Positions 12,184 to 64,000 of a stretch of DNA of 64,000 bases are shown one piece after another. A program made the translations under genes and the position numbers. Within the stretch, counting starts at the first letter, position 1. The number at the start of each line of letters is the position of its first letter. Under the pieces are notes generated by a model. That model worked only from the letters and a program-made list of their open reading frames with translations, ran no database searches and was not told where the DNA came from. The stretch comes from Hydrogenivirga caldilitoris (GTDB taxonomy: Bacteria; Aquificota; Aquificia; Aquificales; Aquificaceae): NCBI RefSeq assembly GCF_003664005.1, contig NZ_RCCJ01000001.1, positions 434,001-498,000 on the forward strand. The letters run 5' to 3'.

Positions 12184-12198
12184 AGTATTTAAGGAGTC

Positions 12199-12213: not shown

Positions 12214-12219
12214 ACACTG

Positions 12220-12666: not shown

Positions 12667-12720
12667 TTCACACCTCCCATTTATTGAAATTTAAGGAATA
12701 TTCTATACTATCTGGACTCC

Positions 12721-13125: not shown

Positions 13126-13139
13126 GTCCCAAACCTTTA

Positions 13140-14126: not shown

Positions 14127-14147
14127 CTCAATCACCTCCTCAACAGA

Positions 14148-14909
14148 TTAGTGGGTAAATACTCCCTCTTCCTCCATAACTTTCCTGAGAACCTGCTTGA
14201 ACCTGTTCCAATTTTTGGTCCTCGGGTGGAAAAGCATGTGCTTTGCGTTGAGGACGAGGAAGCCAATGTTCATACTCTTCAGTGGTTTTGCTGCGAGCTG
14301 CTTTAGCCAATCTGGCACTCCGCCCACAAAGGGTATAGGTTTCTTGAGAATTGGGTCCTTAACAACTTGGTAACCCTGTTTCTCCACCCATCCGAAGAGG
14401 AGCTCTCCATCCTCTATCCTGCCGTACTCATAGACGCTCTCTAAGAAGAACTTATCAAACTTCTTGGAAGGATATTCTTCTATTATTCCCCTCTTAGCCA
14501 TAACCCTGAGTATCGCTTTCAGAACCTCTTCAACGAGAACACCCTTTGGACACCTGTGGGTACACTTGTGGCAGGACACACACCTCCACATGACATCTGC
14601 CCGCTTCTGGAGTTCATCAATCAACCCGAGCCTTGCCAGGTATATGAAGTGTCTGGGGTTGTACCTTTCATCCCAGTAGTTATGGACGGGACAGGAAGCT
14701 GTACAGTAAGAGCACTGGTAGCATTGGGTTATAGTCTTACCTTCAGGCTGCTGGAGGACTTCATCTAAGAACTCAAGGTCATAGTCGTTTATAACCCTGG
14801 GAAGTATTATTAAGTTCCAGTCTCCTGATACATCAACTCCATCAATAACTAACCTCTCTTTCCTGAGTACCCTTTCCGGGTCAACCAGGCTTCTCTCATG
14901 GATAGCCAT
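14148..14909 (-). CDS. hdrC2: sHdr complex subunit HdrC2 (two [4Fe-4S] clusters)
   Basis: The 253-residue protein has two ferredoxin-like motifs: Cys63, 66, 69 and 73 (CYQCSYCTASCP) and Cys110, 113, 116 and 120 (CVSCHKCTHRCP). These are the electron-transfer clusters of HdrC-type subunits. The C-terminal half (FFLESVYEYGRI, PDWLKQLAAKPLK) matches HdrC proteins rather than simple ferredoxins. It is soluble by sequence, with no membrane segment. It follows the hyp gene by 12 nt and precedes hdrB2 by 21 nt, and probably forms the electron conduit between HdrA and HdrB2. Confidence 0.9.
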   Translation of the reverse strand: MAIHERSLVDPERVLRKERLVIDGVDVSGDWNLIILPRVINDYDLEFLDEVLQQPEGKTITQCYQCSYCTASCPVHNYWDERYNPRHFIYLARLGLIDELQKRADVMWRCVSCHKCTHRCPKGVLVEEVLKAILRVMAKRGIIEEYPSKKFDKFFLESVYEYGRIEDGELLFGWVEKQGYQVVKDPILKKPIPFVGGVPDWLKQLAAKPLKSMNIGFLVLNAKHMLFHPRTKNWNRFKQVLRKVMEEEGVFTH

Positions 14910-14921
14910 CTCTCACACCTC

Positions 14922-15722
14922 CTAAGTAAATTCAACGGGGACATTAACCCCTAGGAGCCTCTTTGCCATGACTCCAGCAGGTGGGAAGAACCCCTTTGCG
15001 CTGTGCATCGTGGACAGGGTCATGTAATCTACATAGGTTGCGTATATCATTGCAAGGAATATGTCAACGAAGAGGTAGCCCTTAACCTTTATTCCAAACT
15101 CTTGGAGCTTTTCCGCTATTTGCTCGTAAACCTGTTTGAACTGCTCGTAGGTTTCTCCGTACATCCTCCTTCCACGTCCTCCTGTCGGGGGTTCCTCCTT
15201 AAGGAAAACGATAGCTCCCGTTTCACTCTCCGGGTCCCAGATCCAGCTGGTCCAGAGAATGTATTTCTCCGGAAAGGTAAAATGGAGGAGCTCTGCGGCT
15301 ATGTCCCTGGCTGACTTTCTGTCAATTCCTCTCAGTTGCTTTGCAAATTCATCAACCTTCTCTTCCCATGTTCTTTCCGTATCCTTCTTCTTCCTGAGTA
15401 ATCCACCCTTCTCATCGCCGTACAGGAGGTCACTTATAGCCTTTTTGAGTTTGTCTATGCCGGTTTCCTCAATAATCTGCTTCTTTTTCCTTCTTGCCGC
15501 GAATATCTTGTCAAAGATAGCCTCAAGCTCCTCTGCCTTTAAGGAAGGCAGCCTGTCTTTGGCAAGGGTTTTCTGGAAGAATTCGGATTTCTCCACCAAT
15601 TCCTGATAGAATTCCTGGGCAAAGTCTTCCCCTTCACCAAGGATTTTAATCAGATAGTCCCTTATAAGGGCATCGTCAAGCGTGACAGCCTTAAAGCCGC
15701 CTTCCTTTCTTTCTTCACTCAT
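14922..15722 (-). CDS. Conserved hypothetical protein of the sHdr operon (hyp)
   Basis: The 266-residue protein fills the position between hdrA and hdrC2 that a conserved gene of unknown function holds in sHdr operons. Its first half is highly charged and helical (FFQKTLAKDRLPSLKAEELE, IFAARRKKKQIIEE); the second half has an HFTFPEKYILWTSWIWDPE stretch and a more hydrophobic C-terminus (FVDIFLAMIYATYVDY). No cysteine or cofactor motif is evident, suggesting a structural or assembly role. It starts 2 nt after hdrA ends. The placement is firm; the function is unknown. Confidence 0.85.
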   Translation of the reverse strand: MSEERKEGGFKAVTLDDALIRDYLIKILGEGEDFAQEFYQELVEKSEFFQKTLAKDRLPSLKAEELEAIFDKIFAARRKKKQIIEETGIDKLKKAISDLLYGDEKGGLLRKKKDTERTWEEKVDEFAKQLRGIDRKSARDIAAELLHFTFPEKYILWTSWIWDPESETGAIVFLKEEPPTGGRGRRMYGETYEQFKQVYEQIAEKLQEFGIKVKGYLFVDIFLAMIYATYVDYMTLSTMHSAKGFFPPAGVMAKRLLGVNVPVEFT

Positions 15723-15724
15723 AA

Positions 15725-16783
15725 CTACGCTGACACCTTAGCTCCTATAAATGTTGCTGCTTCAGCTCCAGCAGCTTCACCCTCTGATAGGGAGGATTCA
15801 ATGTCTATGGGTCCTTTGCAGGCACCCGCTATAAACACGCCTGGCTTGTTAGATATTATGTTGGAGCCAGCATCTTCTGCTGGAACAAGAAACTGGCTGT
15901 CTGGGTCCTGGGCGAGACCGAGTATCTTTGCAACCTTTTTGGTGCCTTCGGAAGGCTCCATTCCAAGAACTAAAACTACAAGGTCCATCGGAACCTCAGC
16001 AGGTCTCTGGACTATGGTGTCCTCATGCTTGACCCTCAACCTTCCATCTTGGGGGTTATAGGTTATCTCAGCTATCCTACCCCTTACGTACCTGACTCCG
16101 TGTTTCTCCTGAGGAGCCCAATAGAAGGGGTACTCCCATGTTCCGTAAGTCCTCACATCCATGTAGTAGCAGAACACATCAACTTCAGGGTAGTGTTCCC
16201 TTATCTCGGTTCCCTGAAGACCTGAAAGGGCACATCCGTATCTACAGCAGTGAACATTTGTAACACCAAGCTGTCTATCCCTGGAACCGACACAGAACAC
16301 AAAGGCAACCCTCTTGGGAAGCTGTCCATTAGATGGTCTGTAGAGCTTTCCTTCCCTTGAGAACATTTGCTCAAGCTCAAGGTTGGTTATTACGTCAGGA
16401 TAGATACCGTAGCCCAGCTCGCCCTTCCTTTTGGCATCAAAGTGCTGGAAACCTGTAGCTACAACTATTGCAGCTACCTCATGCTCCTCACCGTTGGATA
16501 ACTTCACTTTAAAGTTTGGAGCTTCACCTTCACAGGCTTCAAGCTCAACACCGAGTTTCACATCAATGTTGGGGTTATTCTGGACCTCTTCTATGAAAGG
16601 TCCTATGACCTGCTGGGGAGTCATCTTTCTGGGTATTAGGGTGTGATAGTCCTCAATTACAGGCCTTCCACCGAGCTTTTGCTCCTTTTCTACGAGTATA
16701 GTGGGTATTCCGAGCTTACCCAGTGTCCTCGCTGCTGCAAGTCCTGCTGGACCTCCTCCGACCACCAGAACACTCTTAGCCAT
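15725..16783 (-). CDS. hdrA: sHdr complex subunit HdrA (flavoprotein)
   Basis: A 352-residue HdrA-like flavoprotein. The FAD-binding motif GGGPAGLAA follows the first strand at residues 9-17, and the closing GVFIAGACKGPIDIESSLSE is typical. Cysteines at 164, 179, 180 and 184 (FVFCVGSRDR, HCCRYGC) probably hold its iron-sulfur cluster. It is much shorter than methanogen HdrA, as expected of the sulfur-oxidising type. The ATG at 16783 follows AGGAGG by 6 nt; a TTG at 16789 would lie beside that motif. The GC hairpin at 16818-16834 is upstream. Confidence 0.92.
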   Translation of the reverse strand: MAKSVLVVGGGPAGLAAARTLGKLGIPTILVEKEQKLGGRPVIEDYHTLIPRKMTPQQVIGPFIEEVQNNPNIDVKLGVELEACEGEAPNFKVKLSNGEEHEVAAIVVATGFQHFDAKRKGELGYGIYPDVITNLELEQMFSREGKLYRPSNGQLPKRVAFVFCVGSRDRQLGVTNVHCCRYGCALSGLQGTEIREHYPEVDVFCYYMDVRTYGTWEYPFYWAPQEKHGVRYVRGRIAEITYNPQDGRLRVKHEDTIVQRPAEVPMDLVVLVLGMEPSEGTKKVAKILGLAQDPDSQFLVPAEDAGSNIISNKPGVFIAGACKGPIDIESSLSEGEAAGAEAATFIGAKVSA

Positions 16784-16817
16784 CTCCAACCTCCTTAATA
16801 AGAGTTATTAGAGTAAA

Positions 16818-16834
16818 GGGGAGCAAAGCTCCCC
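16818..16834 (-). repeat. GC-rich intercistronic hairpin between hdrB1 and hdrA
   Basis: GGGGAGC, a 3-nt loop and GCTCCCC form a perfect 7-bp stem just after hdrB1 ends. No U-run follows on the minus strand. It matches the pattern of the other intercistronic hairpins of the operon. Confidence 0.65.
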
Positions 16835-16848
16835 AGAACCTGCTAGCT

Positions 16849-18186
16849 TTAAGACTTGAAAAGGGGCATGTCTGCAGAAGCGGACTTCTTCCTCTTAAAT
16901 CCATCAGAAGTTCTGCTGTAAGGCTCGTAAAGGTCATACTCCTTGAAGAATTCCAGGAGCTCATCGTACTTTCCTTCTTTCTCAAGCTCTGCTATGTGCT
17001 TAACAGTGTCTTCCCACTCTTTTCTGAGCTCTTTCCAGTTGGTTATACCCATCTTCTCAAGCAGGGGTTCGTAGTTGGAGCAGTTCCAGTAGAGCTGAAC
17101 TATCTTGAAGGGGTGTGCTCCACATGCCAGAGCAGCGAACATCACATCGGACATGACAGCCACAGGGTGATACATCCCGTGAGCTTTTCCTATCCACTGG
17201 TTCTTTTCAAAGGTGGTTGTGCATCCGGTATCATGGGTAACCATGAGGTCAGCCTTGACCTCTTCGGCTATGACCTTAAGCTTTCTCTGGATAGCGAAAG
17301 ACCTCGTGAATTCCCTCTCGGTGAGTATGTGCCTGAAACCAAAACCGCAGCAGTCGTACCAGGTTGAGTAGTCAACAACCTGAGCTCCGAGAGCCTTCAC
17401 TACCGCCGTAGAAGCTGCAGGTCTCTGTCCATTGTAAACTTCCGCATCGTATGGGTAATCATCTGCCATCATCTTCCAAGTGTGACAGGCATTGTGTATA
17501 GCTACCCTAACATTGGAAACGTCTATACCTTTGGCTTTCCCCTCCTTCTCGTAGAGTTCAGCTATCTTGTGCCTTACAGCGTGAACCCACTCGGAGTAGT
17601 GAACTACCTCTTGGGGTATAACGATTCTTCCGTCCTCGGTAAGCCTTCCAAGCTTCTTCAGGATCGGCTTAACGGCGTCCCTGAGTTCCTTGTTGAATAT
17701 GAGCTGCTCTCTTGTCTCCTTATAAGAACCGAATGAGGTTCCGCAGTGTATAAGGGGGTAATAGCCCGTCTTCCAAGCCTGGTGCATGTTCCTGAGCCAA
17801 ACTGCTGCCAGGGCAACGGGGTTTGATGTTCCAGAACCGTGGTAGTTCCATGCTGTACAGGATGTCTGGTGCGGCTCGTTCAGATAGTCATACCCGAACT
17901 TGTTCATGAACCAGAATATGGATGCAGGATATCCAGGTATGTTTCCGCACTGACCGCAAGATTTGTGGTGCCATAGCTTGGCTGTAGGAACGGTCTTTAT
18001 CCTTCCGGTTCTTGTGAATACCTCAACAGGCTTATTCTCCTCAGTAATCTTGTATACCAGGATCTCTCCCTTCTCTTCAAGTTCGTGCATCTCCTCAAAG
18101 AGATGGTCATAGTGAGAATGCTTGTTCAGTATTGGAAACGGCTCAGGGTCTGCATATCTCAAATATGGGCTTTTTCCGTGTCCCAT
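16849..18186 (-). CDS. hdrB1: sHdr complex subunit HdrB1
   Basis: This 445-residue HdrB-like subunit is longer than HdrB2. Cysteines are arranged as Cys77 and Cys80 (KSCGQC), Cys110, Cys148, Cys234 (HNACHTW), Cys279-Cys280 (YDCCGFGF) and Cys322 (HDTGCTTTF). The second half resembles a CCG domain but lacks the second cysteine of the final CxxC, and the first half is further degenerate, so cluster content should differ from HdrB2. The position after hdrC1 gives the name. The tail has a Phe-Lys-rich end without a known motif. The hairpin at 18214-18227 lies upstream of it. Confidence 0.88.
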   Translation of the reverse strand: MGHGKSPYLRYADPEPFPILNKHSHYDHLFEEMHELEEKGEILVYKITEENKPVEVFTRTGRIKTVPTAKLWHHKSCGQCGNIPGYPASIFWFMNKFGYDYLNEPHQTSCTAWNYHGSGTSNPVALAAVWLRNMHQAWKTGYYPLIHCGTSFGSYKETREQLIFNKELRDAVKPILKKLGRLTEDGRIVIPQEVVHYSEWVHAVRHKIAELYEKEGKAKGIDVSNVRVAIHNACHTWKMMADDYPYDAEVYNGQRPAASTAVVKALGAQVVDYSTWYDCCGFGFRHILTEREFTRSFAIQRKLKVIAEEVKADLMVTHDTGCTTTFEKNQWIGKAHGMYHPVAVMSDVMFAALACGAHPFKIVQLYWNCSNYEPLLEKMGITNWKELRKEWEDTVKHIAELEKEGKYDELLEFFKEYDLYEPYSRTSDGFKRKKSASADMPLFKS

Positions 18187-18213
18187 AATTACACCTCCTC
18201 AAAATTTTTACTC

Positions 18214-18227
18214 GGGGTTTTAGCCCC
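18214..18227 (-). repeat. GC hairpin between hdrC1 and hdrB1
   Basis: Read on the minus strand, GGGG, a 6-nt CTAAAA loop and CCCC form a short stem in the 55-nt gap, followed by GAGTAAAAATTTT. The stem is only 4 bp, so it is the weakest of the four hairpins. Confidence 0.4.
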
Positions 18228-18241
18228 TTTAGTTAACTTAA

Positions 18242-18973
18242 TCACTCTTCCTCCTCTTCCAGAAGCTCTTCCCATCTCTCTTCGTTCTCCTCAACGATGT
18301 CCATTATGACGTTGTATAGGTTGGGGTCAAGCTTCTCAAGCATTTCAAATATTCCTGTTTCTCTCCATATGGTGTACATCTCTATAGCCGTTTCAAGGGA
18401 GACTTCCCAAGCTGTTTTAACGGACTTTCCAACGTCAAAGGGTATAGCCATCCTCTTAGCCCTGACGTTCTCCATATTGTCCTGCATCTTCGGACCCCAG
18501 TCAGGGAAGAAGTCTGGTTGTAGCATGTCAGCTGAAAGCTGGTTTCCTGTCGTCATAACCTTGAGGAGAACCCTTCCGTAGGGCTTGAGAAGGTCTTTGG
18601 TTGCCTCAAAAGCGTTTCTGACTGCAACCTCTCTCATTATTATCACTAGCCCGCCCGGATTGTTTACGAAAGGACACCTTATCCAGCAGGTGAAGCACTG
18701 GGAGCAAGCCCATATGTATTCATGCATCATATCGTATATAACCTCTACGTCCTCTTCAAGGAACCTCTGAACGATCTCCCTTGGAGAGTAATCAAAGAAT
18801 CTATTTGATGGGCAGGAAGCTGTACACACTCCACAGTTCAAGCATCCGAAGAGAAACTCCTTGAACCTGAAGTCGGACTTTACCTCCTCATATACCCTGA
18901 CCTTCTCTTCCCACGGAACTTCCTTGGTCTTTTCCGATATGGGAATGTTGTATCCATAAGGATGTCCTTCCAT
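18242..18973 (-). CDS. hdrC1: sHdr complex subunit HdrC1 (two [4Fe-4S] clusters)
   Basis: The 243-residue protein carries two four-cysteine cluster motifs: Cys44, 47, 50 and 54 (CLNCGVCTASCP) and Cys90, 93, 96 and 100 (CSQCFTCWIRCP). It should relay electrons between HdrB1 and HdrA. A very acidic tail (EENEERWEELLEEEEE) ends the protein. AGGAGG stands about 7 nt before the ATG. It is the first gene of the hdr part of the block and is separated from the upstream dsrE by 158 nt containing a hairpin and a palindrome, so a promoter of its own is likely. Confidence 0.92.
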   Translation of the reverse strand: MEGHPYGYNIPISEKTKEVPWEEKVRVYEEVKSDFRFKEFLFGCLNCGVCTASCPSNRFFDYSPREIVQRFLEEDVEVIYDMMHEYIWACSQCFTCWIRCPFVNNPGGLVIIMREVAVRNAFEATKDLLKPYGRVLLKVMTTGNQLSADMLQPDFFPDWGPKMQDNMENVRAKRMAIPFDVGKSVKTAWEVSLETAIEMYTIWRETGIFEMLEKLDPNLYNVIMDIVEENEERWEELLEEEEE

Positions 18974-19061
18974 CTCAACACCTCCTCAAAATGGTATGCA
19001 CGTTGGTACCATGCTCAGATACTAAGTTAGTTCCTTTCGCACAGGAAAACAAAAAAATTTC

Positions 19062-19100
19062 GTTATAGGGATATAAAAATATGCTTATAATCATATTTTT
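19062..19100 (-). promoter_or_regulatory. Palindromic element and possible promoter upstream of hdrC1
   Basis: AAAAATATG at 19075-19083 and CATATTTTT at 19092-19100 form a perfect 9-bp inverted repeat around 8 nt. On the minus strand, TTATAA (19085-19090) and TATAAC (19062-19067) are 17 bp apart and could be -35 and -10, placing the palindrome over the -35. The right half, extended to TTATAATCATATTTTT, matches 14 of 16 bases in the tusA leader. This could be a regulator site, but both promoter boxes are weak. Confidence 0.4.
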
Positions 19101-19105
19101 GATGG

Positions 19106-19125
19106 GGAGGGGGAAGAACCCCTCC
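19106..19125 (-). repeat. GC-rich hairpin after the second dsrE gene
   Basis: GGAGGGG and CCCCTCC pair over a 6-nt loop, 6 nt after the dsrE stop. No U-run follows directly in the minus direction, so full termination is doubtful. Partial termination or RNA stabilisation is possible between the tusA-dsrE part and the hdr part of the block. Confidence 0.6.
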
Positions 19126-19131
19126 TTTGTC

Positions 19132-19557
19132 TTACAGGGATATGACAGCATATTCGCCGCTCATAAGCTTGTCTAGGAACGCTGCCCCACCTATTATTCC
19201 GTCACAGAGTTCCTCGTTGACGTCTTCCTTCTTGTAAACGTCCGTCAGGTCAAGGGAGGGAACACAAAGGTATATCTTCACACCGGCTTCCTTTGCCATA
19301 ACTATGAAATCATAAACGGTCTGCTCAACACCTGGTCTTACCTTGACCTTTTTAGCGTTGTCCTTCATGAGGAGAAAACCAGCCTCCGAGGTGATGACCA
19401 TTTCAACCTCATAGTCCATAGTGGTAGCAGCGGTTGCGAGGAAAAAGGGTGCTCCAGCCTGAGGGTTTATAAGCTCCCCTGTAGTGGGCTCAGCCCTTTC
19501 AAAGAAGGGGACCGTAAGGATGTAGAAGAGAAGTTTTTCGTACTCTTGTGCCGCCAT
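19132..19557 (-). CDS. DsrE-like sulfur carrier protein
   Basis: The 141-residue protein has DsrE-family alternation of strands and helices, with Cys98 in VKIYLCVPSLDL at the usual persulfide position. The N-terminus (LLFYILTVPFFE) is more hydrophobic than typical DsrE but does not look like a membrane helix. It follows the DsrE2-like gene by 26 nt, with CTTTCCTCC (ribosome binding site AGGAAAG/GGAGG on the minus strand) before its start. With tusA and the gene above it, it forms a sulfur-transfer group that probably feeds the sHdr complex. Subfamily assignment is uncertain. Confidence 0.75.
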   Translation of the reverse strand: MAAQEYEKLLFYILTVPFFERAEPTTGELINPQAGAPFFLATAATTMDYEVEMVITSEAGFLLMKDNAKKVKVRPGVEQTVYDFIVMAKEAGVKIYLCVPSLDLTDVYKKEDVNEELCDGIIGGAAFLDKLMSGEYAVISL

Positions 19558-19583
19558 TCCTTTCCTCCTAAAAATTTTTTAAG

Positions 19584-20132
19584 TTAGGTAAAGATAATCA
19601 TTGGCTTGTCTGCTTCAAGGACGTAGTTAATAAAGGTGGCAGCTCCACCCGGAGGTTCTAAGCCGTCTATAAGGTCCTCATACTTGTAGCCAAACAGTTC
19701 CATAGTCATCTGGCAGGGTATGAGCTTTACATCAGCTTCTTTGCAGAGTTCAACGAGCTCTTCAACTGAGGCCACACCGTGGTCTTTCATGGTCTTCTTC
19801 ATCATAGCTGTCATAAAGTCAGTCATTCCAGGTATGATACCCATTATCTGGGGAGGACCAGGGAATACAGCCTCCATTAAGCCTGCAAGCTGACCTGCTA
19901 TGGGCGTCTTCTTTACCGAAGGGGGGAACGCCATTGGCATTCCAGGATTTCCAACGGGGGAAATCTTTAACTGCTTTTGCTTCTCCTTGTGTATTATGTT
20001 CAGCCCATAGAAGGTGAAGAATATAGCAGTTTCAACACCTAGGGAAGCTGCCGTTGATGCAAGTATAAGTGGAGGGTAAGCCCAATCCAACGTTCCTTTT
20101 GTAGCTATTATTGCAAGCCTTTCAGATGCCAT
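19584..20132 (-). CDS. DsrE2-like protein (DsrE/DsrF/DrsH family)
   Basis: A 182-residue protein of the DsrE2 type often linked to tusA. It opens with LAIIATKGTLDWAYPPLILA, has a long mid-section rich in Pro and Met (GNPGMPMAFPPSVKK), and ends with VKLIPCQMTMELFGY, where Cys140 is the expected persulfide cysteine. Cys130 is ten residues before it. TusA-DsrE2 pairs are thought to hand sulfane sulfur along a relay. It starts 12 nt after tusA ends. Confidence 0.82.
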   Translation of the reverse strand: MASERLAIIATKGTLDWAYPPLILASTAASLGVETAIFFTFYGLNIIHKEKQKQLKISPVGNPGMPMAFPPSVKKTPIAGQLAGLMEAVFPGPPQIMGIIPGMTDFMTAMMKKTMKDHGVASVEELVELCKEADVKLIPCQMTMELFGYKYEDLIDGLEPPGGAATFINYVLEADKPMIIFT

Positions 20133-20144
20133 GGCTACCCTCCT

Positions 20145-20381
20145 TTACTTTTTCTTAATGTAGAAGATGTACTTACCTCCTTCTTCTACAGTTTCTACAA
20201 GCTCATGCCCGGTTCTGTTACAGAAAGCGGGTATGTCAGCTTTAGAACCTGGGTCTGTTGATATAACCTCAAGAATTTGACCGCTCTGAAGCTCCTCAAT
20301 CGCCTTCTTGGTCTTAAGAACTGGGAGAGGACAGTTAAGTCCTGAGGTATCCAATGTCTTATCTGCAGTAACACTAGCCAT
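20145..20381 (-). CDS. tusA: TusA-family sulfur carrier protein
   Basis: The 78-residue protein shows the TusA signature LDTSGLNCPLPVLKTKKA, with the persulfide Cys17 in the CPxP motif, followed by LEVISTDPGSKADI and the terminal GKYIFYIKKK strand. TusA carries sulfane sulfur in the cytoplasm, here as the first gene of the sulfur block. AGGAGG precedes the ATG at 20381 by 8 nt; the GTG at 20390 is disfavoured. A possible promoter and palindrome lie upstream at 20403-20456. Confidence 0.93.
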   Translation of the reverse strand: MASVTADKTLDTSGLNCPLPVLKTKKAIEELQSGQILEVISTDPGSKADIPAFCNRTGHELVETVEEGGKYIFYIKKK

Positions 20382-20402
20382 ACTACACACCTCCTATACA
20401 AA

Positions 20403-20456
20403 GTTTACACTAAACTCCTTACATTAGATTATCACCATATTTTTATAATGTGACTA
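20403..20456 (-). promoter_or_regulatory. Promoter region and palindrome upstream of tusA
   Basis: On the minus strand, TAGTCA (20451-20456) and GATAAT (20428-20433) are 17 bp apart. GTTTA-CAC-TAAAC (20403-20415) is a perfect short palindrome just downstream, and AGTTTACA recurs at 20493-20500 on the regulator's side. The stretch at 20429-20444 matches 14 of 16 bases of the hdrC1 element. This fits a divergently controlled promoter, but no element was tested. Confidence 0.4.
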
Positions 20457-20533
20457 TTACTTTTTATTAATAATAGGATAATGCCGATTTATAGTTTACA
20501 GGAACAAGCCTAAGTTATAAGTTTATTTAAAAG

Positions 20534-21097
20534 ATGGGAAGGAAAGAGGAAATTGTAAGACTTGTGGAAGAAGGATACAAGACAGCTAAGGAACTTGCGA
20601 GGCACTTTAACGTATCCCTCATGACTATATACAGAGACCTCAAAGAACTTGAAGAAGAGGGTGTAATAATTAGAAGGCATGGAAATATTGAGCTTAAAAG
20701 GGAGGAAAGCCTCCGTGAAAGTGTGTGTGCTGTCTGTGGGAAGGAGGTTGACCTTAGGCTGGCCTTCATATATATCCTACAGGGGGGCAGAAAGGTTCAT
20801 ACGTGCTGTGCCCACTGCGGACTTATAGCCTATAAGACTTTACCAACGGATAAAGTGGAGATGGCCATCACCAGAGACTTTATAACCTGCAACCCTATAA
20901 ACGCCTTTACGGGTACCTTTGTGGTCGGCAGCATGGCAAATTCATGTTGTACTCCATCAGCTTTCGTTTTTGCCGATAAAGAATATGCACAGAGGTTTGC
21001 CAAGGGTTTTGGAGGTTACGTGTCTGACTTTGTGGATGCGGTGGTGAAAATGGAAGAACTTATGAAGGCAGGGCAGAGGGTAAACCTTTCCCTGTAA
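20534..21097 (+). CDS. HTH regulator with C-terminal cysteine-rich NosL/TRASH-like domain
   Basis: The 187-residue protein opens with a DeoR-type helix-turn-helix (residues 5-50: YKTAKELARHFNVSLMTIYR, EEEGVIIRRHG). The rest is rich in cysteine: C65xxC68 (CAVCGKEV), Cys91, 92 and 95 (HTCCAHC), Cys119, and Cys138-139 (SMANSCC). The C-terminal block (FVVGSMANS through AFVFADKEYAQRFAKGFGG) resembles the end of NosL copper proteins, and the middle resembles a TRASH metal-binding unit. It is transcribed away from tusA across 152 nt, so control of the sulfur block is likely. The ligand may be copper, another metal or sulfane sulfur. No ribosome site precedes the ATG strongly. Confidence 0.65.
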   Translation: MGRKEEIVRLVEEGYKTAKELARHFNVSLMTIYRDLKELEEEGVIIRRHGNIELKREESLRESVCAVCGKEVDLRLAFIYILQGGRKVHTCCAHCGLIAYKTLPTDKVEMAITRDFITCNPINAFTGTFVVGSMANSCCTPSAFVFADKEYAQRFAKGFGGYVSDFVDAVVKMEELMKAGQRVNLSL

Positions 21098-33173: not shown

Positions 33174-33914
33174 TCACTTTACGAGGTCATCAAGCTCCTC
33201 AGCCGACCTGGGGAGTCCAACGATATACTTGCCGTTCATACCTATAACGGTTGGTGTTCCAGATATACCGAGCTCCTGCATAAGGTTCATGTTCTCTTCA
33301 ATGGCTTTTTCACCTTCCTTGCATTGATTCTTAGTGCTTACATTCCTGTGAATATCGTCATAGCCCTTCTTGTCACAAACCATAGCTACAGCCTTTGGCT
33401 TTGCGTCCGGGTGTATCGGCAGTGGATAAAGTATGACCTTAACCTCTACGTTATTCTTTTTAGCCCAGTCTTTTAATATAGGGGAGAACCTCTTACAGAA
33501 GGGACAATCAGGGTCTGTTATATAGTAAACGAACTTATCTCCCTTACCGTAAGTCATATTTACACTTTTTTCCAGCTTTTCAAGTACTTCCTTAGATACC
33601 GTCATGTACTGGCTGGCCGTTTTCTGGGTTAAGTTCTCCTTGGTATCAACGTTGAACACATTCCCAACTATGTAGTTCTTGCCCTCGGAGTTAGTGTATA
33701 TGACTATAGGTTTAAGGCCAACCTTAAGGACAACTTCACAAAGACCGCTGAAACCTTCCGCCGGCTTAAGACTGACCACGCTGAATTCTCTGTTTACAAG
33801 CTTGCCCAGGTTTTCCTTTACAGCCTTTTCATCGGGACAGACCTTCGCCTGGGGTGCTTTGCAGGAGTAAAGCATGACGGAACCTATCATAGTTGCAAGG
33901 ATTGCCTTTTTCAT
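33174..33914 (-). CDS. DsbC/DsbG-like periplasmic thiol isomerase, probable lipoprotein
   Basis: The 246-residue protein begins with a signal ending in the lipobox LYSC, so Cys18 should be lipidated. A thioredoxin-fold domain carries CPFC at Cys137 and Cys140 (TDPDCPFCKRF), and GISGTPTVIGMNGKYIVGLP is the cis-proline region of DsbC/DsbG relatives. An N-terminal dimerisation-like domain precedes it. It probably handles disulfides in the periplasm. GGAGGTAA precedes the ATG. The upstream gap to leuA holds a TATTAT box without a good -35. Confidence 0.88.
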   Translation of the reverse strand: MKKAILATMIGSVMLYSCKAPQAKVCPDEKAVKENLGKLVNREFSVVSLKPAEGFSGLCEVVLKVGLKPIVIYTNSEGKNYIVGNVFNVDTKENLTQKTASQYMTVSKEVLEKLEKSVNMTYGKGDKFVYYITDPDCPFCKRFSPILKDWAKKNNVEVKVILYPLPIHPDAKPKAVAMVCDKKGYDDIHRNVSTKNQCKEGEKAIEENMNLMQELGISGTPTVIGMNGKYIVGLPRSAEELDDLVK

Positions 33915-33967: not shown

Positions 33968-35533
33968 TCAGATAGTTCCCTCTTCTCTTATTTGGGACTT
34001 CTGAAGTATATACTCCTTCCTCATTATAGCTCTGTTCAAAGCATCAACAAAGGCATTCACACTCGCTTTAATTATGTCCGTATCAACCCCTCTACCTGAA
34101 GCTCTCACCCCATCAAGCTCAAGGACAACTCTTGCCTCCGCCTGGGCATCAGTGTTAGGTGTGAGAGCCTTTATTGAGTAATCAAGGAGGTTGGCATCTA
34201 TACCGAGTGCCTTTTGAATAGCCTTTATGGTAGCATCAACAGGTCCGTTTCCTGTAGAGGTTCCGGTCTTTTCTTCTCCTTTAAAGTAAAGCTTTACCGT
34301 TGCAGTCGGCATGATATTGTCACCACTTTGAACCTGGAAATGCTGGACCTTTATGGGCTCTTCTTCACTCAGCTTCATAAACTCCTGGTATATGAGAGCT
34401 TCAATGTCCTCATCGTAAACCTCTTTCTTCTTGTCAGCGAGGGCTTTGAGCCTTTCATAGATCCTATTCAGGTCATCTTCAGAATACTGTATCCCGTACT
34501 CTTCAAGTTTCTGCTTTAAGGCGTGTCTCCCTGAGTGCTTTCCAAGCACTATCCTTCTGCTTACCGGAAAGCCAACGTCTTCCGGATTCATTATTTCGTA
34601 AGTCAGTCTGTGGCTCAAGACACCATGCTGGTGTATTCCAGACTCATGGGCAAAGGCGTTATCCCCGACGATAGCCTTGTTCGGTGGAACGAAGGAGCCC
34701 GTTATCCTGCACAGGAGCCTTGAAGTTTTATAAAGCTCTTTTGTATCCACACCCGTGAAAAGCTCACCGAAATAGTCCCTCCTCACTCTGAGAGCCATAA
34801 CTATTTCTTCAAGGGCTGCGTTTCCAGCTCTTTCCCCTATACCGTTGATGGTGCATTCAACCTGCCTCGCCCCATGTTTCACAGCCGTCAGGGAGTTGGC
34901 GACAGCAAGTCCAAGGTCATCGTGACAGTGGACACTGATTATAACCTTATCTATGTTTGGAACGTTATTGATTATATCCTCAATAAGTTTCCCGAATTCC
35001 TCTGGGACAGCGTAACCCACGGTATCAGGTATGTTTATAACGGTGGCTCCCGCCTTTATCGCTTCCTCTATAGCCTTGTACAGAAAATCTCTCTGACTCC
35101 TGGTTGCATCCTCGCAGGAAAACTCCACGTCGTCGGTAAAGTTCCTCGCGTAGGAAACCGCACGCCTTATCCTTTCAAGTACTTCGTAAGGTTCCATCCT
35201 GAGTTTGTACTTCATATGTATCTCTGATGTAGCTATGAAGGTGTGTATCCTCTTTCTCTCTGCAGGCTCTATAGCCTTGGCAGCAACCTCTATATCCTCC
35301 TCACGTGCCCTAGCGAGTGAGCATATTACCGGACCCTTTACCTCTTTAGCTATCCTGTTTATAGCTTCAAAGTCCCCCTGGGAAGCTATGGCAAAACCGG
35401 CCTCTATTATATCAACCCCCAGACGGGCAAGCTGCATAGCCATCTGGAGTTTCTCTTCCGTCGTCATGGAAAATCCGGGTGCCTGTTCTCCGTCTCTCAA
35501 AGTGGTGTCAAATATGTAAACTCTATCGTCCAT
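33968..35533 (-). CDS. leuA: 2-Isopropylmalate synthase
   Basis: LeuA condenses acetyl-CoA with 2-oxoisovalerate, the first committed step of leucine synthesis. The 521-residue protein shows FDTTLRDGEQAPGFSM, the metal-binding SVHCHDDLGLAVAN and INGIGERAGNA, and GKHSGRHALKQKL, followed by a C-terminal regulatory domain (NGPVDATIKAIQKALG) that mediates leucine feedback. A good promoter with an overlapping Fur-like box lies upstream at 35550-35580. It has no operon partner here. Confidence 0.96.
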   Translation of the reverse strand: MDDRVYIFDTTLRDGEQAPGFSMTTEEKLQMAMQLARLGVDIIEAGFAIASQGDFEAINRIAKEVKGPVICSLARAREEDIEVAAKAIEPAERKRIHTFIATSEIHMKYKLRMEPYEVLERIRRAVSYARNFTDDVEFSCEDATRSQRDFLYKAIEEAIKAGATVINIPDTVGYAVPEEFGKLIEDIINNVPNIDKVIISVHCHDDLGLAVANSLTAVKHGARQVECTINGIGERAGNAALEEIVMALRVRRDYFGELFTGVDTKELYKTSRLLCRITGSFVPPNKAIVGDNAFAHESGIHQHGVLSHRLTYEIMNPEDVGFPVSRRIVLGKHSGRHALKQKLEEYGIQYSEDDLNRIYERLKALADKKKEVYDEDIEALIYQEFMKLSEEEPIKVQHFQVQSGDNIMPTATVKLYFKGEEKTGTSTGNGPVDATIKAIQKALGIDANLLDYSIKALTPNTDAQAEARVVLELDGVRASGRGVDTDIIKASVNAFVDALNRAIMRKEYILQKSQIREEGTI

Positions 35534-35549
35534 CCTTTACCTCCGCAAT

Positions 35550-35580
35550 TGATAATAATTCTCATTTGGGGTTTTGTCAA
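35550..35580 (-). promoter_or_regulatory. leuA promoter with overlapping Fur-like box
   Basis: On the minus strand a perfect TTGACA (35575-35580) and TATTAT (35552-35557) are 17 bp apart, and GGAGG follows before the leuA ATG. TGAGAATTATTATCA at 35550-35564 matches the 7-1-7 Fur consensus TGATAATnATTATCA at 13 of 14 fixed positions and covers the -10 box. The -35 overlaps the end of the upstream gene. Fur control of leuA is an inference; a Fur gene is partly in this window. Confidence 0.6.
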
Positions 35581-36470
35581 CCTATCATATCCATGACCTT
35601 CTTAAGGCTGACACGCATTCTCTCTATAGCCTTAGCAAGTTTACCTATCTCGTTCTCCGACTGGTAAGGGATCGGCTGTTCAATCTCCCCCTTGCTTATC
35701 TTCTCAGCCCTGTCTCTGAGGGCATCTATGGGCTTAAACACTCTGAAGTTAAGTATCAGCAGTATTATCCCCGACATGAGTATGAACACACCGCCCACAA
35801 GACCACCGTTTACGATACCATCAATTCTTGCCTGTTCCATAACCTTATCAAAGGGAACGTAGACGAGGACGGCACCATTTACCTGACCGACAGGCCAGTT
35901 AGGGTCTTCCTTGGGATTGTACAGATTTCTCACAGCAACAGGCATGTCCTCAACCTTGCCGTGGCACCGCAAACAGCCCTTTTTGGGTATGACAGAGAAG
36001 GCTTTTATAAAGTATTCCTTCCCACGATGGAGGGTTATCCCCTCAAACTCTTTCAGGTTCTTAGATTTCAGGTAGGCTATGATCCAGAGCTCGGTTTCGT
36101 TGGGTTTATCTTTCGGATTCAAAGGTTTTACGGCAACCTGTCTGAGCTGCATATCCGGAATCTCCTGGTTTACCCGTGTGAAGATGGAAGCTGTGAAAAA
36201 GGAGGAGGACTGAGCTTCAAGAATGAAGTCCTGGCTTGTACACCCGGCAGCAAGGAGTTCATCAACTTTAGGTCTCAAGGTTGAACGTACATAATCCCTT
36301 GAGGCTTTTACAAAGGCCATAGTGGTCTCTATTCTACTTCTTGCAGAGTCAATGGCTTTATTGATGGTTGACCTGTATATAAAGAAACCCACTCCCGTAC
36401 CTATGAGTATTCCCGTTATAACGATAACGAATGAAATCTCAGCCCTTATGCTTCTGAAAAACACCTTCAT
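35577..36470 (-). CDS. DUF3365 haem-type sensor with HAMP domain and no output domain
   Basis: This 297-residue membrane protein has helices near 12-31 and 219-241. The periplasmic part between them is DUF3365-like, with a single CxxCH haem c motif at Cys166, Cys169 and His170 (GCLRCHGKVED). A HAMP region (242-293: RVFKPIDALRDRAEKISKGE) is followed by the end SLKKVMDMIG. No kinase, cyclase or methyl-accepting domain is present, so output must pass through partners. Its start overlaps the PATAN gene by 4 nt. Redox or gas sensing is likely but unproven. Confidence 0.8.
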   Translation of the reverse strand: MKVFFRSIRAEISFVIVITGILIGTGVGFFIYRSTINKAIDSARSRIETTMAFVKASRDYVRSTLRPKVDELLAAGCTSQDFILEAQSSSFFTASIFTRVNQEIPDMQLRQVAVKPLNPKDKPNETELWIIAYLKSKNLKEFEGITLHRGKEYFIKAFSVIPKKGCLRCHGKVEDMPVAVRNLYNPKEDPNWPVGQVNGAVLVYVPFDKVMEQARIDGIVNGGLVGGVFILMSGIILLILNFRVFKPIDALRDRAEKISKGEIEQPIPYQSENEIGKLAKAIERMRVSLKKVMDMIG

Positions 36471-37600
36471 TCCCGGCTCCTCCTAACCCGCTTTAAAAAT
36501 GCGCTCCTATGATCATCATAGGGGATCTCTTCCGCCAACCTCTCTATGAACTCGTCAAGTTTACTGGCAGGGACACTCTCTTCGTCCCAGCCGAACTCAT
36601 CAAAGAGCTTTTTCCATACTATCTTCGCGACGGGACCCATCTCATCCAGGAGTGCTTCCTTTATCTCATTAAGTTTCTGCGGAGGGACTCTGTCTATTAC
36701 TTCCTCTGAGGCTTTGAGACTGAACCTGACAGGGCTCGGATTTGTATCCACGTATAGAGGGTAGAGGGTGAACCTTCCGGGAAAGTCCACATCCTCTTCG
36801 CTCACCTCATCTATGCTAAATAAACCCTGGAGCAGTCCCTTTACCTCTTTACCCCTGTAAAAGAACTGGTAATATCTCCTTGCTCTTCCTCCGTCAAGGT
36901 AAAGCAGCGCACTCATCCTCCTACCTTTTATATCGTCCCTTACCGCGTCCATTTCGGCTTTTTCCGTTATATCACCTTCTTTAATAACCTCCAGGCGCAC
37001 CATGGAAAGGAGCAGGGGTACAAAGTCTGGCTCCAGCAGGAACGTGCTTACAAAACCACCCCTTGAGTTTATCCTTATGTATTGAACGGCTTTCTCACCG
37101 CTCCTTTCCGGAGCGAAGATTCCAGCAGGGTCTCCATTGTAAAAGATAACCATACCTACAGGCTCTCGCTTTGTATGGAAAAGCATGTAGCCGTTAAAGT
37201 GGCTCTTCTTTGCGAGTGTCTTGAACTGGTCAATATCTATGTGAGATAAGGAGGATGTAGGGTGGAATTCATCTCCGTAACCTGCCAGACAGAGGGGTCC
37301 ATCCCTTTCAGGGTTAAAGTCGTTCCTCAAGCCGTGTACGATACTTACAGGGTCTGTTTCTATTATCTCTAACATACCTGTTTGGGGAAACCCGTAAGTG
37401 GTATAGTTGGTTTCCTCTATTCCCCTTTTGCTAACTATAAAGATTCTGTTAATTTCCCCATCGTAAAAGGGAATGTAATCCTCAGCGTCCCAGCTGGTTA
37501 TCTTCACGTATCCTGTAAACTTTCTGCGTCTTAAATCCTCTATAAGGGCTTCTGTATTAACAAGTTCCAGGTTTATCTTTTCTTTTACTTCTTGGCGCAT
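36467..37600 (-). CDS. PATAN-like double-domain protein A
   Basis: The 377-residue soluble protein has two PATAN-like units: RRKFTGYVKITSWDAEDYIP with GEINRIF, and KKSHFNGYMLFHTKREP with YNGDPAGIF. Its C-terminal 80 residues (ALLDEMGPVAKIVWKKLFDEF, split here as ALLDEMGPVAK and IVWKKLFDEF) match the end of the paralogue at 39813-41000. PATAN proteins usually link two-component or GTPase signals to motility machines. It overlaps mglA by 16 nt and the DUF3365 sensor by 4 nt, so the three are translated together. Confidence 0.7.
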   Translation of the reverse strand: MRQEVKEKINLELVNTEALIEDLRRRKFTGYVKITSWDAEDYIPFYDGEINRIFIVSKRGIEETNYTTYGFPQTGMLEIIETDPVSIVHGLRNDFNPERDGPLCLAGYGDEFHPTSSLSHIDIDQFKTLAKKSHFNGYMLFHTKREPVGMVIFYNGDPAGIFAPERSGEKAVQYIRINSRGGFVSTFLLEPDFVPLLLSMVRLEVIKEGDITEKAEMDAVRDDIKGRRMSALLYLDGGRARRYYQFFYRGKEVKGLLQGLFSIDEVSEEDVDFPGRFTLYPLYVDTNPSPVRFSLKASEEVIDRVPPQKLNEIKEALLDEMGPVAKIVWKKLFDEFGWDEESVPASKLDEFIERLAEEIPYDDHRSAFLKRVRRSRE

Positions 37601-38148
37601 GCTTTCTCTAATAAGATTTTTCTGACAATTGCCTGGAAGGTTTCCAAAACCCCCTTACCTTCCGTAGCTACAGCCTCTATATGCTCAGTCCCCCAAGGAT
37701 TACATACGGGCTCAAGCTCATCTACGGGGAGTGCATCAGGCACGTCCCTTTTGTTGTACTGAACCACAACGGGCAGAGAATATAGATCAAAGCCCTGCTC
37801 CTTAAGAACGGCGGCTGTCTCTCTGAGAACGAGAAAGTTTATATTCTCCCTCTCTTTGGAACTGTCTACGACGAAAACCAGTCCGTCCACGCCTTTCATT
37901 ATCACCTTTCTAAGAGGATGAAGTCTGAACTGCCCCGGTGTGGTAAGAACCTTGATGTCAATATTTTGACCCTCAAGATTTATGGAGCTTAGGAACATTT
38001 CAACGAAGAGTGTCCTGTTCTCGTCGGTCTCCATAGATATGTAATCACCCTTAGTTATGCCTTTGCTTTTAAGAAGGTCATACAGAACCTTAACGTTGGT
38101 ACTCTTGCCAGCCAGAGATGCCCCGAAGTAAACCACCTTTAACTTCAT
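37585..38148 (-). CDS. mglA: MglA-like Ras-type small GTPase
   Basis: A 187-residue GTPase of the bacterial MglA family. The P-loop is GASLAGKST at residues 9-17, the switch region has TTPGQFRLHP (Thr70-Pro-Gly-Gln73), VVDSS follows, and the guanine motif NKRD is at 132-135. MglA sets cell polarity and steers type IV pili or gliding; Gln73 aligns with the usual switch II glutamine position. It overlaps the roadblock gene by 4 nt and the PATAN protein by 16 nt. Confidence 0.9.
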   Translation of the reverse strand: MKLKVVYFGASLAGKSTNVKVLYDLLKSKGITKGDYISMETDENRTLFVEMFLSSINLEGQNIDIKVLTTPGQFRLHPLRKVIMKGVDGLVFVVDSSKERENINFLVLRETAAVLKEQGFDLYSLPVVVQYNKRDVPDALPVDELEPVCNPWGTEHIEAVATEGKGVLETFQAIVRKILLEKACAKK

Positions 38149-38636
38149 TTCGCCCCCAGTATCTTGTTGAGTTTGTCTTCAATTGCTTCAGGGGAGAGCT
38201 TCAGCAGCTTTGAAGGCTTCGGTTTTACCGAAGAGAATATCCTATTTAGCTCGTCTGCAAGCTCTTTTAAGAAGAGCCTGACGGTTCCCAAGGCAACGCT
38301 CTTTGGGCAAAGTACACCTACAAGAAACCTTTCACCTACAGCTTTAACCACAACATTCTGTTTCTTGCTCTCGTACTGAATGGCGTCAAGGAGGTCTTCC
38401 TTGGATACCATCTTTGCCATTTCAAAGGCGGCGCCGAATATACCGCTTATTATGCTTGCGAGAAATTCAGCCTGGGTTTCATCAAGGTTCTTTCCGTAAA
38501 AGGAGATGATACGTCCAGCGTCGTCCGAGAGGAGTACGAGGTCAGCTTCTGTCCTTGCCACAAAGTTTTTTAGGGCATTGATAAGCTTCCTCTCAACCTC
38601 CTCGTCTATCTCGTACTGGACTATGTCAAGTTCCAT
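38145..38636 (-). CDS. Roadblock/LC7 protein, likely MglB-type GTPase-activating partner
   Basis: The 163-residue protein contains a roadblock/LC7 domain: ADLVLLSDDAGRIISFYGKN, FLASIISGIFGAAFEMAKM, KQNVVVKAVGERFLVGVL, then a C-terminal helical tail (KLSPEAIEDKLNKILG). MglB roadblock proteins stimulate GTP hydrolysis by MglA. The adjacent mglA overlaps by 4 nt (ATGA), which fits a complex. The ATG at 38636 is preferred because AGGAGG is 5 nt upstream; the first Met of the open frame at 38666 has no such motif. Confidence 0.87.
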   Translation of the reverse strand: MELDIVQYEIDEEVERKLINALKNFVARTEADLVLLSDDAGRIISFYGKNLDETQAEFLASIISGIFGAAFEMAKMVSKEDLLDAIQYESKKQNVVVKAVGERFLVGVLCPKSVALGTVRLFLKELADELNRIFSSVKPKPSKLLKLSPEAIEDKLNKILGAK

Positions 38637-38684
38637 CCTATCCTCCTGGAATAAATGATAAACCAAAACCTTTCACCTTCAACC

Positions 38685-39800
38685 TCACTTAAGAAGGTCC
38701 ATAACCTTCTTTATACTGAGCCTCATTCTATCAAAGGCTTCGGCAAGTCTTCCGATTTCGTCCCTTGACTCTATTGGTATCTTCTGGTCAACGTCTCCCA
38801 TACTTATCCTCTCGGTATGCTCTATGAGAGTATTTATCGGGTCTTCAACGTATTTCTTGAATATCATGTAGCTTATAAAGAAACTGAATATGAGTCCGAC
38901 GAAGACGAACATAAGTATGTAAACACCTATCTGTTTGTAGGAGTCTATCACTGGTGTCAGGTCGTAGCCCATAAGCAGGAGTCCTACGTTTCTTCTTGAA
39001 AAGTCAAATATAGGCTTTGCCATAACCGCGTAGTTCTGAACCACAATAACCGTCTCCGGTTTGTCCTTTGCCTTGAGCATAAGCTCCCTAAGTATAGGGT
39101 TTGTCTCGTAATAAAGGAGGTAGGAACCGATCTTTTCTGCCTTTACAGCCCACTCGGCATGAGCTGCTGCCTTTTTGTCTATTAGGACTACAGTATCCAT
39201 ACCTACGAGTCCCTTGAGGTCATCAAGTATAGGGTTGAAGGGTGTTATGAGTTCCACAGCTCCCAGATACTCGTTCCCTTCCATTACAGGGTATGCACCT
39301 GTAACTATCGCCCTTCTCAATCCTATCTCTATCCCCTTCTGAGGAGCCCTCCTTTCGGCGACAGTGACTATTATCCTCCTGAACTTGGAAACGTCTATTC
39401 CAAATCTCTCCGGATTCCAGCTTCTGAAGAAGGAGATGGCGACAGGAGCCAGGAAGTGAAGTCTAAGGTCGTATATGCCCGTTAAGGTTTCAAGGTCTGT
39501 TCTCACCTTTACATACTTGTAAAGGAGGTCCCTGTTTTTGCTTTTAAAGGCTTTCTTCACGTCCGGGTCTTGGCTCACAAGGTAGGCAACCGAAAGACCT
39601 GCGTTCTCCCTCGTTTTAATTTGTTCAAGGAACAGTTTGTATCCGTTGTTTAAGGTCTCCTCAGCCTGCTTCCTTAACTGCTCTTGCAGGAGATAGTAAC
39701 TAACAGCAGCAACAGATGCTATGAGGACAACCAGTATTATTACGTTCGGGACAACGAACTTCTCTATAAGCGAAGCGTTCTTAAAGTATCTGCCTACCAT
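38685..39800 (-). CDS. Cache-type membrane sensor with HAMP domain and no output domain
   Basis: The 371-residue protein has an N-terminal helix (NVIILVVLIASVAAVSYYLL), an extracytoplasmic Cache-like sensor (PEVKK-type pattern and IGLRRAIVTGAYPVMEGNEY), a second helix near 295-318 (IGVYILMFVFVGLIFSFFIS), and a HAMP region ending RMRLSIKKVMDLLK. No kinase or methyl-accepting domain follows, exactly like the DUF3365 sensor at 35577, whose end is similar (RMRVSLKKVMDMIG). It lies between PATAN protein B and the roadblock gene, 12 and 48 nt away. Confidence 0.8.
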   Translation of the reverse strand: MVGRYFKNASLIEKFVVPNVIILVVLIASVAAVSYYLLQEQLRKQAEETLNNGYKLFLEQIKTRENAGLSVAYLVSQDPDVKKAFKSKNRDLLYKYVKVRTDLETLTGIYDLRLHFLAPVAISFFRSWNPERFGIDVSKFRRIIVTVAERRAPQKGIEIGLRRAIVTGAYPVMEGNEYLGAVELITPFNPILDDLKGLVGMDTVVLIDKKAAAHAEWAVKAEKIGSYLLYYETNPILRELMLKAKDKPETVIVVQNYAVMAKPIFDFSRRNVGLLLMGYDLTPVIDSYKQIGVYILMFVFVGLIFSFFISYMIFKKYVEDPINTLIEHTERISMGDVDQKIPIESRDEIGRLAEAFDRMRLSIKKVMDLLK

Positions 39801-39812
39801 TTACAACCTCCT

Positions 39813-41000
39813 CTAAATTATATCTGGCAGTATGCTTTCAACGCGCCTTAAAAATTCCCTGGCTGCCTCATCCTCTGGTATTTCCCTCTTAAGCTTATCA
39901 ACGACTATCTTTATATGGTTTATAGTCATTGAGCTCTCTTTAAAACCAAACTCGTTCAGCGTCTTTTCCCATATTAACTTCCCAAGAGGTCCTATCTCCT
40001 TTATAAAAGCTGATTTAACCTCCATGACCTTATCCAGAGGCACCTCACTGTCCGAGGTGACGACTTCCTCCTCAACACCCTCTATAACCACCTCAATAGG
40101 CTGAGGTTTTTCAATAAGAGATATATCATATACCCATATGGACCTGTCTGGCAGGTTTTCAACCTTGGTAGCTAACCTCCCCCTTTCAACTTCGTCGTTA
40201 ACAAAGAGACCCTTCTCTTTAACAAGCCTGTCTATATGTTGACCCCTGAAGAACATATCGTATCGGTGTATACCTTCACCCTCTATAACTATAACTGCAT
40301 TCCTCTTTTCCTCTGCGACAAACTTTTCCGCCTCTTCGTAAGTCCTGAAGTTTCTTTCTGTTTTCCTTACGTTGTCAGAGTGCATGGAATAAGCGAAACT
40401 TAACAACTCCGGTTCAAGGGTGTACATGGACATGAAGCTCTTTGCTGGAATGAGGTTTGCGTTTATGTAAGTTACCGCTCTGTCTCCGAAGGACCCGTCA
40501 CCTCCAAACACTGCCACCGGAAAACCCCCTTGGAATATCACGATGCCAAATAGCGTCTCCTCTGTGTAGAGGGCAACGTACCCATCTAAATGACTCCTCT
40601 GAGCGAGGAGAAACTCCTTGTTTATGTCAAGGAAGCTTATTGACACAGGCTCCTGTATGAGGAGACCGTAAGGAAAGAAAACCAAAGACCCATCTTGTTG
40701 TATGTTGTGTCTGTACTCAATTATGCCTACAAGGTCGTCTATGGTCGTTTCTACGAGGGATGCGGTGCCCTCCTTACTTTCTATAGCGAAGTTCTCAGCC
40801 TTGGAGAGGCTCCTGCTTCCATCCGCACCGAAGGTAACTACTTTGTAGGGTGCTCCCTTATTAAAGAGCAGATAATCGTCCTTGCTCCAGTATACTACCC
40901 TGAGGAACCCGGTTATCTCCTTTTTACGGACTTCTTCATAGACCTTGTTTATATTCATCACGTTTATGTCAAGGTCTTTGAATAGAACTCTCTTTACCAT
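39813..41000 (-). CDS. PATAN-like double-domain protein B
   Basis: The 395-residue protein is a paralogue of PATAN protein A. Unit one has KKEITGFLRVVYWSKDDYLL, unit two has RSHLDGYVALYTEETLFGIV followed by GGFPVAVFGG, and the C-terminus has AFIKEIGPLGKLIWEKTLNEF in the same place as in A. The GGGGAG motif directly touches the ATG at 41000, so the exact start is uncertain. It is the first gene of the MglA operon and is followed by a HAMP sensor, just as protein A is. No membrane segment is present. Confidence 0.7.
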   Translation of the reverse strand: MVKRVLFKDLDINVMNINKVYEEVRKKEITGFLRVVYWSKDDYLLFNKGAPYKVVTFGADGSRSLSKAENFAIESKEGTASLVETTIDDLVGIIEYRHNIQQDGSLVFFPYGLLIQEPVSISFLDINKEFLLAQRSHLDGYVALYTEETLFGIVIFQGGFPVAVFGGDGSFGDRAVTYINANLIPAKSFMSMYTLEPELLSFAYSMHSDNVRKTERNFRTYEEAEKFVAEEKRNAVIVIEGEGIHRYDMFFRGQHIDRLVKEKGLFVNDEVERGRLATKVENLPDRSIWVYDISLIEKPQPIEVVIEGVEEEVVTSDSEVPLDKVMEVKSAFIKEIGPLGKLIWEKTLNEFGFKESSMTINHIKIVVDKLKREIPEDEAAREFLRRVESILPDII

Positions 41001-63711: not shown

Positions 63712-64000
63712 CTATGTTACTCCACTTTTGCTACATTCAGAACATACACCGAATATTTCCAGTCTGTGATGCATGGGCTGGAAGTTGTAATCCTCACAAA
63801 CCTCGTCCTGGAGCTTTTCTATATCCTCGTTAACGAACTCTATTATCTTTCCGCACTCAACACATACCAGGTGGTCATGGTGAGCCTTTCCCGCAACGAA
63901 CTCGTATATGGTACGGTTGTTTAGCTTTATGACCTCTTTTATGACTCCAAACTCCTGAAGGAGCTTTATAGTTCTGTATATGGTAGAGCGGGATACGCTC
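63712..64000 (-). CDS. fur: Fur-family metal regulator (5' end beyond the window)
   Basis: Only the C-terminal about 95 residues are present. SVSRSTIYRTIKLLQEFGVI is the recognition helix region, HHDH the metal site, and CVEC and CSEC the structural zinc cysteines, with HRLEIFG between. This is Fur, PerR or Zur; subtype cannot be set from the part visible. It is the first visible gene of the run to mogA. It could read the Fur-like box at the leuA promoter. Confidence 0.85.
   Translation of the reverse strand, partial: SVSRSTIYRTIKLLQEFGVIKEVIKLNNRTIYEFVAGKAHHDHLVCVECGKIIEFVNEDIEKLQDEVCEDYNFQPMHHRLEIFGVCSECSKSGVT

Follow-up and report, generated by a model that had tools for sequence, protein, structure and literature searches.

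Across the promoter of leuA in Hydrogenivirga caldilitoris lies a palindrome that resembles a Fur box, which raises the question of which regulator reads it and whether the gene is tied by it to iron supply or to oxidative stress. We examined it in a window of 64,000 nucleotides (contig NZ_RCCJ01000001.1, positions 434,001 to 498,000; the window is the whole stretch of DNA that was analysed) and in related genomes. The features that the argument draws on are as follows, in window positions unless a contig is named.

35550..35564, minus strand: predicted Fur/PerR-type operator, 7-1-7 palindrome TGAGAATTATTATCA, called from its consensus match and its retention in 29/30 leuA promoters
35575..35580, minus strand: -35 element TTGACA, overlapping the upstream gene's stop codon
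35552..35557, minus strand: -10 element TATTAT, within the operator palindrome
35540..35544, minus strand: Shine-Dalgarno GGAGG, read from the sequence
33968..35533, minus strand: leuA, 2-isopropylmalate synthase, 521 aa (PF00682 and PF08502, LeuA_dimer, the leucine-feedback domain)
33174..33914, minus strand: DsbC-like thiol-disulfide isomerase (PF10411, PF13098)
35577..36470, minus strand: gene upstream of leuA, Tll0287-like sensor with HAMP
63712..64000, minus strand: Fur-type paralogue A, incomplete here as the gene runs past the window end to 64167
G000:C1:1525669-1526109, outside the window: PerR-type paralogue B

Read along the minus strand, the elements follow one another as TTGACA, ten bases, TGAGAATTATTATCA, GGAGG and the ATG of leuA (35533), with the box ending 17 bases before the start codon. 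The sequence-only reading had described a near-consensus box covering a -10 element that has a perfect TTGACA at 17 bp, and both points held: the box (35564-35550) differs by one mismatch from the 7-1-7 Fur consensus TGATAATNATTATCA (13/14 positions), with G and C at positions 2 and 14, respectively, and it covers the spacer and the -10 element of a promoter (TTGACA, 17-base spacer, TATTAT) that is matched at 11/12 positions. Transcription of leuA presumably starts near 35545 with a leader of about 12 nt, which leaves no room for a leader attenuator or T-box, and these were rejected. A terminator between the upstream sensor-HAMP gene and leuA was looked for and none was found, so that read-through from the upstream gene is possible, and such transcription could bypass or blunt operator control. 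The DsbC-like gene starts 54 bases after leuA and is probably co-transcribed with it; a gene for a CPxC (DsbC-like) protein lies directly 3' of leuA in 10 of 38 leuA loci. The LeuA of this genome is full-length with its feedback domain, and is the sole match at E ≤ 1e-120. Directly upstream of leuA (window 35577-41000) there are two tandem units of sensor-HAMP proteins with look-alike partners, separated by what we take to be a small GTPase together with a short companion protein.

Rarity within the window would by itself make a weak case for an operator, and 0.48 matches with at most one mismatch to the wider consensus TGMNAATNATTNKCA (M = A/C, K = G/T) are expected per shuffled window. In the whole genome (1,753,429 bases), three sites come within one mismatch of the Fur consensus (leuA, 964133 and 1395719), 111 come within three mismatches compared to 40 for a reversed-pattern control, and a scan with the longer form AATGANAATNATTNTCATT gave one mismatch for leuA and three for all other matches. 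The predicted operator rests instead on conservation. Among the 61 genomes of the order, 57 gave a leuA match and four did not; the 30 loci from the window's genus and family were read together and the others later. The box is present with at most one mismatch to TGMNAATNATTNKCA in 29 of these 30 promoters, and the check in relatives proposed from the sequence alone accordingly did not refute the box; the lone promoter lacking it belongs to G022, a 76%-complete genome without any Fur-family match. In the leuA promoter alignment, the fixed columns of the box stand near 2 bits with most flanking columns below 0.5 bit, and the left half-site, itself no promoter element, is as well conserved as the right one. 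TTGAC precedes the start of the box by 15-17 bases in 29/30 box-bearing leuA promoters. As the upstream sequences differ between genera, the box travels with leuA. These conserved promoters give strong support to the prediction that the leuA promoter carries a Fur-family operator.

A comparison with other phyla in another collection (80 leuA loci, 2 of them with no leuA reading frame) revealed the box at 15/15 Aquificaceae-like loci, which overlap the main genome set and are not independent of it, and at 0/4 Hydrogenothermaceae loci and 0/59 loci of other phyla. Only 1 of 12 leuA upstream regions in the sister family f3 comes within one mismatch, the other 11 having two or more. Family f2 has TGCAAAT-like palindromes within one mismatch of TGMNAATNATTNKCA farther upstream of leuA in 5 of 6 genomes; the TGCAAAT-n-ATTTGCA-like palindrome at L194, L195 and L197-L199 is possibly a shifted version of the leuA control.

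Evaluating which other genes carry the box revealed a set dominated by peroxide defence. The form TGANAATNATTNTCA occurs exactly in 47 of 61 genomes, mostly once (reversed control: three genomes), and sits at leuA where its position was checked; other exact copies precede the 2-Cys peroxiredoxin genes of G012, G030, G065 and G075 and a PerR-type gene of G024. The wider consensus TGMNAATNATTNKCA, which was derived via peroxidase promoters and is hence partly fitted to peroxidases, has four exact sites in the window's genome, with none for the reversed control and a zero-order expectation of 0.7. One of the four precedes leuA and another a di-haem cytochrome c peroxidase; a third stands before a secreted protein, in an operon that goes on to a second di-haem cytochrome c peroxidase; and the last lies in front of a small secreted protein. 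Across 16 genomes there are 40 exact sites compared to 3 for the reversed control, their contexts being leuA (12), cytochrome c peroxidase (6), operons with a second cytochrome c peroxidase (3), peroxiredoxin (3, one of a second type, in G033), the PerR-type gene (4; G024, G017, G026 and G033), an Fe-S protein with CCG domains (2), other intergenic or unclear positions (5) and the inside of genes (5). Peroxiredoxin promoters of the family add to this: of 17 that were readable, 10 have a site with at most one mismatch and 15 with at most two, and most share the TTGAC-box layout of leuA (one fragment, L238, had no upstream sequence and was left out). For the peroxiredoxin of the window's genome the site has two mismatches, the PerR-type promoter of the window's genus has a degenerate site only (TGAAAAGGATTATTG, 3 mismatches), and 0/7 peroxiredoxin promoters of f3 come within one mismatch. 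Among the peroxidase loci, 13/30 gave no scorable upstream region.

Several sites fall outside this set or at its margin. In-gene sites, such as those in ubiB of g3 genomes and in a transposase-like gene of G023, were counted as non-members, and the exact TGAGAATTATTCTCA sites of G079 and G021 were not counted as regulon, since they share a flank like that of a repeat element; the sequence is embedded there in some 50 bases of common flank (L124:1915 and 4372, L125:1934, L117:47), apparently a dispersed repeat and not a promoter, and it also has exact sites in G024. The small secreted protein of the window's genome (L005:1221-1472, on G000:C1) contains the repeat GEGAFWLP three times and matches no Pfam family, its exact box (964133-964147) lies about 29 bases before the start, and a 2Fe-2S ferredoxin gene lies upstream on the same strand. 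A one-mismatch box, TGATAATAATAATCA, stands directly before a gene of G023 (L285:1328) that we take to encode a citramalate-synthase-like protein, a second LeuA-superfamily enzyme. The CCG-domain Fe-S proteins of G017 and G031 (L488:2846-4138 and L489:2687-3964), which have exact boxes before them, are a possible peroxide target, and single sites precede an ftsH-like gene (G070:C105) and a molybdopterin/Fe-S oxidoreductase-like gene (G080).

The window's genome holds two full Fur-family genes, and a third weak match is a different HTH protein (window 20534-21097, 20.1 bits) adjoining a gene cluster (11185-21097) that presumably resembles heterodisulfide-reductase-like sulfur oxidation. The claim that a Fur gene is present in the window is borne out by paralogue A (63712-64167), with the qualification that this gene runs off the window end and that a second, PerR-type paralogue lies elsewhere. 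Paralogue A is Fur-like, having ferric uptake regulators as its best solved matches and the motifs CGKIIEF and HHDH, and is presumably closest to the Fur of Campylobacter and Helicobacter. Paralogue B has B. subtilis PerR (2fe3, E 3e-30) as its best solved match, and an alignment shows H37, D85, H91, H93 and D104 to be all five identical to 2fe3; we take these to be the regulatory metal-binding and peroxide-sensing residues of PerR. Two CxxC pairs for structural zinc (CMNC, CPEC) are also present. The NCBIfam PerR model gave 127.7 bits, the best of the ten models listed and below its cut-off of 180; these models look lineage-specific, so that such a score is compatible with PerR function.

A tree of 87 Fur-family proteins (8 of 95 loci were lost to a sequence filter before it was built, seven of the eight being read later) revealed a PerR-type clade of 27 (95/82) with one protein per genome, with long branches meeting at the root such that the deep joins are unsure. 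A leuA upstream region was readable in 24 of these 27 genomes, and all 24 have the leuA box, whereas two g10 genomes with the Fur-type clade and without the PerR-type clade have it in 0/2, a contrast that rests on one lineage and not on 26 independent cases (Fisher p 0.003, which ignores relatedness and is illustrative only). Genomes of f3 have another PerR-type protein together with the Fur-type clade and mostly lack the leuA box, which argues that the link between leuA and PerR is lineage-specific. Judged from these protein and promoter sequences, the PerR-type paralogue is more likely than the Fur-type paralogue to be the leuA regulator.

The earlier call of a Fur box can be read in its stricter sense, with Fur-Fe(II) repressing leuA in plentiful iron and freeing it in iron limitation. 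The fit to the Fur consensus at all but one position, the Fur-type paralogue at the window end and near-box sites upstream of the Fur-type gene in two genomes (G017 and G019) are in its favor, and the G at position 2 (as in Fur boxes, where the B. subtilis PerR box has T) counts against a PerR-type site. The genes that share the box speak otherwise, being peroxidases, peroxiredoxins and the PerR-type gene, and 7 of the 8 feoAB promoters that could be scored have at least 3 mismatches (21 loci were given, 13 not scorable), the single exception being a one-mismatch site between feoA and feoB in G015. The same operator thus precedes peroxide-defence genes and the regulator gene, as in a PerR regulon, and in seven of these eight scored promoters it does not mark the iron-uptake genes as an iron-Fur regulon would. 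Moreover, the Fur-type clade is kept in both g10 genomes without a leuA box, and also in f3, where 11 of 12 leuA upstream regions lack it. What stands of the earlier call is the Fur-family operator kept in the family; its iron-Fur sense is disfavoured, and we hold it to be unlikely. Somewhat less likely still is that both paralogues compete at the site, leuA integrating peroxide and iron status, which the 7-1-7 frame common to both kinds of box and the near-box sites before both fur-type and perR-type genes would suit, and which the tracking of the box with the PerR-type clade and not the Fur-type one, together with the missing link to most scored feoAB promoters, speaks against. A regulator of another fold, such as an amino-acid or redox regulator, might own the palindrome, its likeness to a Fur box being convergent; the regulator protein is assigned from sequence and one target is an uncharacterised small secreted protein, yet the palindrome has the Fur-family frame and the box stands before peroxidases and before the PerR-type gene itself in four genomes, which makes this very improbable. 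An AT-rich promoter resembling a box by chance, in which the -10 element supplies part of the right half-site and for which about one one-mismatch match in two windows would be expected, was rejected as scarcely credible, being contradicted by the alignment, in which both half-sites are kept and the flanks have diverged, and by the sites common to other promoters.

The explanation that we consider probable on these comparative grounds is that the leuA box is the operator of the PerR-type metal-dependent repressor, paralogue B, and is released by peroxide. Because the box is kept across the family and the same site precedes peroxide-destroying genes, oxidative stress, and not just a shortage of iron, is probably what turns leuA on. 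The repressor with Fe(II) or Mn(II) would occupy the -10 element and hold leuA low, the box over spacer and -10 being a position from which it could exclude RNA polymerase; H2O2 would then oxidise its histidine ligands, the repressor would leave the DNA, and leuA and any DsbC-like gene linked to it would be transcribed along with the peroxiredoxin and the cytochrome c peroxidases. LeuCD is an Fe-S enzyme inactivated by oxidants, and more substrate may therefore sustain flux or protect its cluster: leucine flux would be kept while the peroxide-sensitive [4Fe-4S] isomerase is damaged, with extra 2-isopropylmalate pushing flux and perhaps shielding the cluster. Alternatively, the reason may be that LeuA itself loses its metal or thiols, or that free CoA is released.

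Compared with known systems, paralogue B resembles B. subtilis PerR in the five residues named above, and the gene set resembles the PerR regulons of B. subtilis and delta-proteobacteria in its common targets (peroxiredoxin, cytochrome c peroxidase and the regulator gene) and in an operator over the -10 element. The B. subtilis PerR box TTATAATNATTATAA is not matched by the leuA box, which has the Fur-like form TGMNAATNATTNKCA, but TTATAATNATTATAA is not defining outside Firmicutes. A study of delta-proteobacterial PerR regulons describes predicted PerR sites that are highly variable, one of which, GTTAATGATAATCATTAAC, is close to a Fur box (PMC545781). The term leuA does not occur in that study (PMC545781), whereas leuA is the most constant member here. 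With iron-Fur regulation the likeness lies in the palindrome and its consensus matches, and the difference lies in the feoAB promoters and in a box that tracks the PerR-type paralogue within the family. A search of titles and abstracts found no report of PerR or Fur control of leuA, including in Aquificae. An independent parallel is in Leptospira interrogans, where, according to PMC12345160, superoxide induces leuA2 more than any other gene, with weaker induction by H2O2, leuA mutants are paraquat-sensitive, and this 2-isopropylmalate synthase gene is induced by oxidative stress together with ahpC, ccpA and perR genes. Leptospira LeuA2 is a second, feedback-free paralogue in that account (PMC12345160), whereas here a full-length LeuA with its feedback domain stands behind a conserved operator.

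We lean, with somewhat less assurance than for the operator's PerR-type regulator, towards leuA being the core and most conserved member of the PerR-type regulon in Aquificaceae, steadier than any peroxidase, and LeuA being a dedicated oxidative-stress protein, an independent parallel to Leptospira LeuA2. If so, a peroxide sensor would have a biosynthetic gene as a constant target in an aerobic lineage that branches deeply, and a second lineage would tie leuA to oxidative stress beside the unexplained superoxide induction of Leptospira leuA2. The locus would offer an operator and a regulator ready for testing, and would make it testable whether more LeuA protects the peroxide-sensitive Fe-S enzyme LeuCD.
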